Positions 54,493-56,826 of a stretch of 64,000 bases of DNA are shown here, one piece after another. The position numbers were made by a program, and so were the translations under genes. Origin of the DNA: Stutzerimonas stutzeri (GTDB lineage Bacteria > Pseudomonadota > Gammaproteobacteria > Pseudomonadales > Pseudomonadaceae); assembly GCF_024448895.1 (NCBI RefSeq), contig NZ_JAMOIC010000006.1, positions 124,001 through 188,000 on the forward strand, written 5' to 3'. The notes beneath the pieces were generated by a model. That model made no database searches, was not told the origin of the DNA, and saw only the letters and a program-made list of their open reading frames with translations. The first letter of the stretch is position 1; each line of letters begins with the position of its first letter.

Positions 54493-56346
54493 TCAGAAAG
54501 TTTCGATCTTGGCATCACTGTGCAGCATTTGCCGATACGCAGCGAAATCCTGCTGCCCGCTACGTGAGGCAAGGAAGCGACGATAGTTTTGCTTGTCTTC
54601 TTCCGATAGCGCGGATTCAGGCTCGCTAACACCGCTTAACCGAACGACCACATAGTCACCATTAGTGAGCCTAACCATGCCATAGCTAGGCTTTTCGTTG
54701 GCTTCAGGCTTCGGCATGCGGAACACTTGCTGCAGCACCTCAGGTTCAACACCCTCCTGGCTGCGAGAAGCGGCTTCTACGGGCTGCCACTGGCCGCTCG
54801 CGTCACCACCGTCACGCAAGGTGGCGATCAGTTCCTCACTCGCCTGCTTCGCCTGATCAGTGGCCTTGCTGCGCTGAAGCTGCGCGACGATATCGTCCTT
54901 GACCTCATCGAATGGCAACGCTTCAGGTTGCAAGTGCTGCTTCACGCGGACTGCAATGGCGGTATCTGGGTCCAGTTCTATGACACCACTGTTCGCGCCA
55001 TCAACTAGAACTTCTTCGCTGAACGCGGCCTGGATGACCTGCCGATTCGCTGCCACACCTGCCCCACCCTCACGTCCAAAGGCTTGAGTTGTCTGGACGG
55101 AAAGGCCCAACTCCTGAGCCGGTTGGGCAAGGTCGGAGGATTCAAACGCGGTGTCTTCAAGCTGCTTGCTAGCTTCGACAAAGCGTTGTTCTACTTGCTG
55201 AGCCTTGATCTCACGAACCAGCTCGGGCCTGAGGCTATCGAGAGTCGGAACCTCCGGTGACTGAACGCCGAGCAGCTTGATCAGATGCCAGCCGAACTCT
55301 GAACGAATCGGCTCAGAAACCTGGCCATCCTTTAGTGCGTACAGAGCCTCTTCAAAGGCCGGGTCGTAGACACCTGGGCCTGCGAAGCCGAGATCTCCAC
55401 CTTCATTAGCAGAGCCGGGATCCTCTGAAAGCTCCTTGGCCAAAGCGGCGAAGTCCTCGCCTTCACTCAGGCGTTTGGCAACTTCGTCAATTTTGACTCT
55501 CGCATCGCCATCGCCCGCGTCATCAGCCTCGATCAGGATATGTGCGGCACGACGTTGTTCTGCCAGATTAGCGATGCGTTGCTGATACAGATCATTTACG
55601 TCGTCGTCTGAAGCCTCAACCTGATCAAAGAAGGACTCCTTCTTCAACTCGACGTACTCAACCACCACCTGCTCTGGCGAGCGATAGCGGTCAGTGTTCT
55701 GCTCGTAGTGCTGGCGCGCTTCGTCGTCGCTTACCTCCACGCTAGCTGTGTCTGCAGGAATGGAAATAGTGGCGAAATCACGAGTTTGCTGTTCGAGACG
55801 AGCAAACGCCTCGATCTGCTCGTCCGTCACGAAGCCAGAACCGGATATCCCGGCCCGAAGCTGACCTATGAGCATTTCCTGCTTCATGAGCTCACGAAAT
55901 TGAAACCTCGTGTAGCCCATCTGCTGAATGACCTGGTCGAAGCGCGCCGCGCTGAATGCACCATCAACGGTGAACTCGGGCGTTTGCAGAATCAACTGGT
56001 CGAGCGCCGTCTCGGAAAAAGCGAAATCCGCGTCGCGGGCACCTTGAAGCAACAGTGCACGGTCGATCAAAGCGCGCAAGGAAGACTCGCGTACGAGCTT
56101 GTCATCAAGCATCGAAGGATCGAAATTACCACCAAGTTGCTGGGCGAGCTGACGTCGCTGCATGTTCATTGCTTGGTTGAGCTCATCCAGCGAGATTTCC
56201 TCACCGTTGACCTCAGCGGCGTTTCGGCTGTTGCTGGCAGCGTTGAAGATGGCGTCGAAGCCCGTCAGCGCCAGCAACATGATAATGATGCCGATGATCG
56301 TTTTGGCAATCCAGCCTTGTGAATTGTCCCTGATGTTCTGAAGCAT
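54493..56346 (-). CDS. ppiD: Periplasmic folding chaperone PpiD (SurA N-like plus parvulin)
   Basis: The 617-residue protein is anchored by one N-terminal helix (about 12-35, TIIGIIIMLLALTGFDAIF). A SurA N-like chaperone region follows (about 40-210). A parvulin-type PPIase domain lies around residues 265-370 (RRAAHILIEADD, GGDLGFAGPGVYDPAFEEAL, SEFGWHLIKLL), followed by a C-terminal region. It sits at the Sec translocon and helps outer-membrane and periplasmic proteins fold. ATG 56346 is preceded by GGGGGA; the upstream frame to 56379 adds eleven residues not seen in the family. Confidence 0.95.
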   Translation of the reverse strand: MLQNIRDNSQGWIAKTIIGIIIMLLALTGFDAIFNAASNSRNAAEVNGEEISLDELNQAMNMQRRQLAQQLGGNFDPSMLDDKLVRESSLRALIDRALLLQGARDADFAFSETALDQLILQTPEFTVDGAFSAARFDQVIQQMGYTRFQFRELMKQEMLIGQLRAGISGSGFVTDEQIEAFARLEQQTRDFATISIPADTASVEVSDDEARQHYEQNTDRYRSPEQVVVEYVELKKESFFDQVEASDDDVNDLYQQRIANLAEQRRAAHILIEADDAGDGDARVKIDEVAKRLSEGEDFAALAKELSEDPGSANEGGDLGFAGPGVYDPAFEEALYALKDGQVSEPIRSEFGWHLIKLLGVQSPEVPTLDSLRPELVREIKAQQVEQRFVEASKQLEDTAFESSDLAQPAQELGLSVQTTQAFGREGGAGVAANRQVIQAAFSEEVLVDGANSGVIELDPDTAIAVRVKQHLQPEALPFDEVKDDIVAQLQRSKATDQAKQASEELIATLRDGGDASGQWQPVEAASRSQEGVEPEVLQQVFRMPKPEANEKPSYGMVRLTNGDYVVVRLSGVSEPESALSEEDKQNYRRFLASRSGQQDFAAYRQMLHSDAKIETF

Positions 56347-56400
56347 GCATCCCCCAGGAGTCAGCTGCGCAATGTTCACTGCAGCAAGGGTGGAATCCGG

Positions 56401-56432
56401 ATAAAAGAAAGGCGCATCCAGGGATGCGCCTT
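56401..56432 (-). terminator. Intrinsic terminator of the hupB transcript
   Basis: On the minus strand AAGGCGCATCC pairs with GGATGCGCCTT (56409-56419 with 56422-56432), and TTTCTTTTAT follows it. Confidence 0.9.
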
Positions 56433-56550
56433 CTCGGAGCTTTTGGAGCAGTTGGGCTTATCCCCCAAGCCCGAACACAACAGGCAATGCCTGTTTGAAT
56501 AACCGCTCCAGGCCAGAGTCAGCATTAGCGACTACTGGCCGGATCGAAAA
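56433..56550 (-). ncRNA. Candidate structured RNA in the hupB 3' untranslated region
   Basis: Between the hupB stop and its terminator, the minus-strand RNA can fold into two elements. The first is a hairpin (56511-56540): GGCCAG/CTGGCC outer stem, then AGTC/GACT and GC/GC around TAAT. The second is a three-way junction: an outer stem of nine pairs (56501-56509 with 56445-56453) encloses hairpin AACAGGC/GCCTGTT (56479-56495) and hairpin GGGCTT/AAGCCC (56454-56472). One outer-stem pair is G-U in the minus-strand RNA but A-C on the other strand, which favours minus-strand transcription. It may be a 3'-UTR-derived small RNA or a stabilising structure; no family was recognised. Confidence 0.55.
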
Positions 56551-56553
56551 CGC

Positions 56554-56826
56554 TTAGTTGACAGCGTCTTTCAGTGCTTTACCAGCCTTGAAACCCGGAA
56601 TCTTAGCAGCAGCGATGTCGATCGGCTTACCAGTCTGAGGGTTGCGGCCGGTACGAGCAGCACGCTCCTTGACAGCGAAAGTACCGAAACCAACCAGTAC
56701 CACGGAATCACCAGCCTTCAGAGCGCCTGTGACGGATTCAATTACTGCATCCAGCGCGCGGCCAGCAACAGCTTTCGGGATATCAGCAGATGCAGCAATG
56801 GCATCGATCAGTTCCGACTTGTTCAC
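56554..56826 (-). CDS. hupB: DNA-binding protein HU (HupB-type)
   Basis: The 90-residue histone-like protein binds and bends DNA nonspecifically as a dimer. It has the HU start [11 protein letters not shown], the [28 protein letters not shown] arm with the proline at the tip, and the C-terminal helix ending in ALKDAVN. Length is exact for the family. It follows lon on the same strand, as in many proteobacteria, and has its own strong promoter. The long structured region after its stop is described separately. Confidence 0.98.

Follow-up and report, generated by a model that had tools for sequence, protein, structure and literature searches.

What occupies the interval between the stop codon of hupB and its terminator in Stutzerimonas stutzeri, and from what did it arise? 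In the window (the whole 64,000-nucleotide stretch of DNA analyzed here), an earlier note made from the letters alone had described the minus-strand RNA of this interval as a long hairpin, a three-way junction and an intrinsic terminator, and had read it as a 3′-end-derived small RNA or a stability element of the hupB mRNA. We examined the fold of this element, its variation within Stutzerimonas, and the genes found at the same place in relatives.

A folded element downstream of hupB

The upstream gene of the transcript is hupB (HU beta, open reading frame of 90 aa, 56554..56826), which lies on the minus strand, as do all features below. Between its stop codon and the slot held by a tRNA gene in relatives, the RNA forms a leader hairpin (GGCCAGTAGTCGCTAATGCTGACTCTGGCC, 56540-56511). 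The three-way junction that follows is closed by an outer stem of nine pairs between a 5′ arm (GGAGCGGTT, 56509-56501) and a 3′ arm (AACTGCTCC, 56453-56445); the MFE structure adds T56510-A56444, and the G-U pair noticed earlier in this stem is confirmed as G56504.U56450, one of the nine. The fold places two hairpins inside the junction. The first, of seven pairs (56495-56489/56485-56479, spanning 56479..56495), stands in place of the D and anticodon arms of a tRNA, and the second, of six pairs (56472-56467/56459-56454, spanning 56454..56472; seven with a G.U in the MFE structure), abuts the 3′ strand of the outer stem with no gap, comparable to a T arm on an acceptor stem. A linker (AAAAGCTCCGA, 56434..56444) leads to the intrinsic terminator (56408..56433), a G+C-rich hairpin with a T run. 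Hairpin, junction and terminator, as first described, were thus all recovered in both sequence and fold.

Folding of 56405-56553 on the minus strand gave an MFE of −71.8 kcal/mol (z = −5.40), and none of 200 dinucleotide shuffles was as good. The plus strand of the same interval folds equally well (z = −5.43), so folding energy cannot choose the strand. Without its terminator the window element has z ∼ −3.8, and the mean of 194 distinct related elements is −2.39; the description of far more structure than in a normal 3′ UTR therefore fits the window copy and is less apt for the family.

ARAGORN found no tRNA gene and no GTC-anticodon cloverleaf in the whole window, and a comparison of the whole window with Rfam, a check named in the earlier note, matched no family at its gathering score; STnc320 and TarB (E = 4.4 and 4 within 56250-56700) lay far below that score and were rejected. 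A 181-base query had a single match in its own genome and no copies in the plasmid collection.

Two minor features of the unpaired regions were noted. The GCTCC of the 3′ arm (56449-56445) is repeated in the linker (56440-56436) with an A-run between, which offers the 5′ arm two possible partners; in loci L006 and L119 the longest helix is an alternative of the CTTGGAGC/GCTCCGAG type. The loop of the second inner hairpin holds GGGGGA (56466-56461), conserved through much of Stutzerimonas, and a pseudoknot between this loop and the linker CUCC was discarded as inconsistent on a by-eye look at the Stutzerimonas alignment.

Covariation and strand within Stutzerimonas

The 181-base query matched 55 of 56 genus genomes, the window's own included, and the 55 elements taken comprised 52 distinct sequences. 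RNAalifold over all 52 returned a weak consensus, and the window's own MFE structure was used for the covariation test instead. Under this structure 91.5% of cells were paired, compared with 31–49% when it was slid by 1–3 columns, a figure favored by the choice of a structure that belongs to one of the 52 sequences. Both-side changes occurred at 18 pairs, a number reached in none of 500 shuffles (mean 9.1) and compared with 8–15 in slid versions, and the cells changed on both sides numbered 62 versus 15–29 after sliding. By helix, such changes affect 10 of 12 pairs in the leader hairpin, 3 of 10 in the outer stem, and 3 of 7 and 2 of 7 in the inner stems; nine of the ten terminator pairs are invariant in the 52 sequences.

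In each of the four variable helices, G.U cells are more numerous than A.C cells (74:5 in the leader hairpin, 45:22 in the outer stem, 25:6 and 43:10 in the inner stems of the 52 sequences), which favors the minus (hupB) strand. Most of the 22 A.C cells in the outer stem probably belong to its outermost extension pair, where 18 cells are unpaired. The folding energy of the window copy, the covariation and the balance of G.U and A.C cells all support the view that the hupB strand carries a 3′ UTR element that is structured and covaries, and to this extent the earlier note is borne out.

A tRNA-Asp gene occupies the same slot in relatives

hupB loci were taken from the genome collection (at least 80), from the genus Stutzerimonas and from the family. 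Of 215 Pseudomonadaceae-centered loci, 213 have the terminator by the pattern used (L083 and L088 were dropped); the genomes overlap in part (e.g. L049/L220 and L045/L212), so these loci are not all separate species. A terminator like that of the window, followed by ppiD, is also found after hupB in related loci, and it is common to the family loci with an intact tRNA. ARAGORN called an intact tRNA-Asp(gtc) in the slot in 9 of the 213 (L057, L058, L059, L168, L210, L227 and L241–L243), with 76–77 of 77 bases matched. Three further calls have decayed bodies: L219 (57/77), and L101 and L106 (tRNA-Asn, 64/77), both from Pseudomonas lundensis, where tRNA-Asn(gtt) is read in a decayed Asp-type body.

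Outside this set, hupB was named by protein match in genomes with a match (96 of 115 at order level, 86 of 143 at class level), and the loci compared are best matches or top-of-list picks, not a random draw. An intact tRNA-Asp follows hupB in 11 of 48 order-level best matches, two of the 48 being Pseudomonadaceae. Among 29 class-level best matches, tRNA-Val(tac) follows hupB in 27, and tRNA-Val then tRNA-Asp in 24; a terminator separates hupB from the tRNAs in one of them (L319). These class-level loci (L298–L326) point to an old association of the nucleoid-protein gene with two tRNA genes. Because intact tRNAs occur in other order- and class-level loci, the intact state would predate the family, and hupB with a tRNA would, as the simplest reading, be the older state.

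By eye, same-place stems resemble acceptor remnants in five loci of other families that have no intact tRNA (L100, L250, L271, L272 and L296). Among loci of other families with an intact tRNA-Asp, a leader hairpin of unrelated sequence precedes the tRNA in L253, L258, L261, L262 and L267; such a hairpin is absent, again by eye, before the intact tRNA-Asp of L252, L257, L268, L269 and L297.

The outer stem carries a private acceptor subtype

The hupB-linked tRNA-Asp of the family has its own acceptor subtype, GGAGCGG...CCGCTCC. In the eight searched genomes of the nine intact loci, the hupB-linked copy is the only full-length match at 99–100%, and the other strong tRNA-Asp copies match just from base 3 or 4. 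The two functional tRNA-Asp copies of the window genome read GCAGCGG...CCGCTGC. The 5′ arm of the window's outer stem consists of GGAGCGG, identical to the 5′ acceptor strand of the ancestral tRNA-Asp (7/7), followed by TT; the 3′ arm consists of AA and then CTGCTCC, compared with CCGCTCC in the 3′ acceptor strand (6/7). Thirteen of the 14 acceptor bases of the hupB subtype are therefore present, and all seven pairs are kept, one as G.U. The tRNA 3′ GCCA is replaced by AAAA (CCA to AAA). On this comparison of sequences, the three-way junction occupies the ancestral tRNA-Asp slot and its outer stem matches the acceptor stem, an origin that the earlier note had missed.

The core of the Stutzerimonas elements resembles tRNA-Asp no better than chance (45/77 matches in L001 versus a shuffled mean of 48.3), the interior has a mean z of 1.1 with 1 of 50 elements above 3, and the first inner hairpin retains no residual tRNA sequence. 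Descent in Stutzerimonas thus rests on position, on the acceptor arms and on relatives. Among the latter, Azotobacter-type loci are readable pseudo-tRNAs, with interior z of 4.2–7.0 in all three distinct elements and one (L219) still called by ARAGORN; the tree groups them, along with four other loci, close to Stutzerimonas (support 0.755). A residual core z above 3 was found in a fraction of 0.62 of 32 P. fluorescens-type and 0.33 of 18 g9 elements, and in 0/11 g12, 2/25 other g15 and 0/8 Halopseudomonas-type elements.

Two further derivations were considered. The leader hairpin shows no similarity to tRNA-Val (mean z 0.1–0.6) and was rejected as a relic of it. Regain of an intact hupB-linked tRNA by conversion from other tRNA-Asp copies is disfavored because the intact hupB copies retain the GGAGCGG acceptor; conversion of the core alone is possible.

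The acceptor-like stem across the family

Collapsing identical elements and discarding any shorter than 80 nt left 194 distinct ones, 185 of them without an intact tRNA. An outer stem of at least six pairs at the expected offset is present in 150 of the 194, compared with 38 and 49 when two sets of control offsets are used. Among the 185, an acceptor-like outer stem of this length is present in 141 versus 35 at control offsets, and it is absent in 44. Their MFE structures contain the outer stem in 169 of 185 versus 281 of 555 mononucleotide shuffles, and exactly two inner branches in 101 versus 26 of 555; among 49 Stutzerimonas elements, seven have no outer stem in the MFE structure. Of the three-way elements (n = 99), 74 have their second inner helix 0–1 nt from the 3′ side of the outer stem, as a T arm would be, whereas 36 have the first inner helix equally close to the 5′ side. 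An unanchored test of helix length with G.U allowed overlapped widely with shuffles (mode of nine pairs versus seven in the null) and was set aside in favor of these anchored tests.

The stem exceeds control offsets in nine of 11 inferred loss clades, two of the nine being single loci. It ties with them in a clade of three loci and in one of 16 (P. mendocina, P. chengduensis and others; seven versus seven). In g9-type loci, the stem is present in 9 of 20 versus five at control offsets.

Probable decay history and conservation

A tree was built from hupB and ppiD DNA of 188 of the 213 loci, omitting those with a ppiD of <200 aa or an incomplete hupB. Intact tRNAs are scattered across it, requiring 11 losses if no regain is allowed, or 10 with weak branches collapsed, versus seven gains. 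Parsimony within the family prefers the seven gains over 10–11 losses; losses are favored because other families carry intact copies, because the acceptor subtype is private to the hupB-linked tRNA and because pseudo-tRNAs occur as intermediates. At one extreme the remnants are nearly complete pseudo-tRNAs, at the other a bare acceptor hairpin (L186 and L187).

Conservation was compared with four-fold sites. In the P. fluorescens-type set (35 sequences in our own grouping: L072–L110 without some outgroups, plus L041, L168, L178, L184 and L185, of which L168 carries an intact tRNA), identity is 0.93/0.91 in the acceptor arms, 0.96 in GCCA and 0.64 at four-fold sites; the core stands at 0.45–0.57, a low value that is partly alignment error, so that misalignment may exaggerate the drop. 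In 27 Stutzerimonas sequences (a list that also omits the short loci L111–L127; L128–L135 are absent from one conservation list), identity is 0.88/0.91 in the outer arms, 0.90 in the second inner stem and 0.78 in the hairpin, versus 0.59 at four-fold sites, and every part of the element, loops and joints too, reaches 66–98% compared with 59%. The linker is 91–96% identical within Stutzerimonas, depending on the subset, and falls within the same range in the 35 P. fluorescens-type sequences. It differs by genus, with GCUCCGAG in Stutzerimonas, where this stretch and the GGGGGA loop are the conserved unpaired segments, and GTTACGAG in P. fluorescens-type loci.

Proposed origin and role

Beyond the slot, the structure and the conservation of its ends, which are direct observations, we consider it probable that the element descends from the tRNA-Asp gene that closed an old hupB-(tRNA-Val)-tRNA-Asp operon, that this gene has decayed and been partly put to new use, and that its remains now act in cis as a folded tail of the hupB mRNA. 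RNase P cleavage at tRNA 5′ ends is established for tRNAs in general. The enzyme would have cleaved the ancestral transcript where the tRNA begins, which would have released the tRNA and left the hupB mRNA with a 3′ end upstream of that tRNA, located in Pseudomonas just past the leader hairpin. Other tRNA-Asp genes would have made the hupB-linked copy redundant, and its decoding core may then have decayed separately in several Pseudomonas and relative lineages, with the leader hairpin, acceptor stem and terminator, the parts that would shape the mRNA end, mostly retained. In Stutzerimonas, the relic would have settled as a three-way junction composed of an acceptor-derived stem of ∼9–11 pairs, a middle hairpin and a stacked T-arm-like hairpin. 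Its present role would most likely be that of a folded 3′ end in cis, slowing the degradation of the hupB mRNA by 3′ exonucleases. We infer that the leader hairpin and the acceptor-derived stem were retained because they shape and protect this end.

A reading compatible with a tRNA origin, possible but in our view less likely than not, is that the relic still serves as an RNase P substrate, the enzyme cutting on the 5′ side of the acceptor-derived stem and so defining where the hupB mRNA ends. Cleavage by RNase P extends to tRNA-like elements outside tRNAs, including in certain mRNAs, and the RNA of the enzyme pairs with the RCCA end (PMC11143913). Such use would account for the acceptor stem and CCA outliving the core: the P. 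fluorescens-type loci keep exactly the ends relevant to RNase P, CCA being kept in 25 of 31 of these and in 15 of 20 g9 loci (67 of 201 loci without an ARAGORN call keep it overall), and in the window an inner hairpin stacks on the stem as a T arm would. Against this, 3 of 60 Stutzerimonas loci retain CCA, the window has AAA, and g12 loci have 0 of 11 by the pattern used, with L211 and L214 carrying it just outside the pattern; moreover, the outer stem continues beyond the would-be cleavage site, to 10–11 pairs, in the window and many relatives. With CCA lost, residual cleavage in the window would be possible yet weakened, and cleavage would be likelier in the P. fluorescens-type and g9 groups, where CCA is retained, than in the window and Stutzerimonas, where it is rare.

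We regard it as unlikely that a fragment of 56410-56510 accumulates as a 3′ UTR-derived trans-acting small RNA, the first of the two roles suggested earlier. The stable fold downstream of hupB, the intrinsic terminator at its end, and the conservation in Stutzerimonas of the unpaired linker and the GGGGGA loop agree with such a product. The linker varies between genera, however, no Rfam family matched, and the literature, among the matches listed, names no product of the locus.

Neutral decay of a functionless tRNA pseudogene is a still poorer account, and we think it improbable. It would explain why the P. fluorescens-type core is no better conserved than four-fold sites, why end states are so many, and why the stem of the 16-locus clade equals its control offsets; but the acceptor arms, linker and terminator are conserved far above four-fold sites, the Stutzerimonas stems are conserved with both-side changes at 18 pairs, and the stem beats control offsets in nine of 11 loss clades, two of them single loci. 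Least probable of all, and very improbable in our judgment, is that the 3′ UTR fold of Stutzerimonas is unrelated to the tRNA and lies by chance where other genera hold one: the chance-level core similarity agrees with it, but 13 of 14 acceptor bases stand at the homologous place, the subtype-specific second pair included, at an equal offset to the shared terminator, and nearby genera carry pseudo-tRNAs.

Descent from the hupB-linked tRNA-Asp remains our preferred reading. A bolder claim, which we put forward tentatively as plausible without favoring it, is that a housekeeping mRNA repeatedly took over the shell of its downstream tRNA, the core being lost many times and the acceptor stem being selected as a device that forms the hupB 3′ end. 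If true, this would constitute a recurrent route from a tRNA gene to an mRNA 3′ UTR element. On our preferred reading, one fixed locus in a well-studied family displays many stages of a single conversion, from intact tRNA via pseudo-tRNA to three-way junction and bare stem. This allows a test of what an mRNA can make of the parts of a tRNA when decoding is irrelevant, and gives a reason for the heavy structure of the hupB 3′ UTR here. It is also a caution for small RNA annotation at this locus, which may be picking up a tRNA relic.

Relation to known systems

mRNA-tRNA operons cut by RNase P exist, and hupB-tRNA in relatives with an intact tRNA looks like one, whereas the window retains just the stem. 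Literature on hupB-linked tRNAs, hupB small RNAs and tRNA pseudogenes contained no report of the relic among the open-access matches listed, as judged by title and the start of the abstract, and the main text of a map of 5′-monophosphate ends in P. aeruginosa does not mention hupB, PA1804 or PA1805 (PMC5870498).

The nearest precedent is the Bacillus cereus pseudo-tRNA "tRNA-Other", likewise a non-translational tRNA gene proposed as the tRNA-like part of a larger RNA; it flanks a pathogenicity island, and its deletion alters antibiotic resistance and cell wall morphology (PMC3399842). The hupB relic differs in being the 3′ end of a housekeeping mRNA, in having decayed separately in several lineages by our reconstruction, and in often consisting of the acceptor stem alone. 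Small RNAs derived from 3′ UTRs are also structured RNAs at mRNA 3′ ends that finish in a terminator, and the passages of a review on them describe no tRNA-derived case (PMC9438474). tmRNA is a dedicated, aminoacylated RNA, whereas the window relic has neither CCA nor an anticodon arm; tmRNA and other RNase P-processed RNAs with a tRNA-like part nevertheless combine an acceptor stem with a T-arm-like hairpin without a full cloverleaf, as here (PMC11143913 and PMC5870498).
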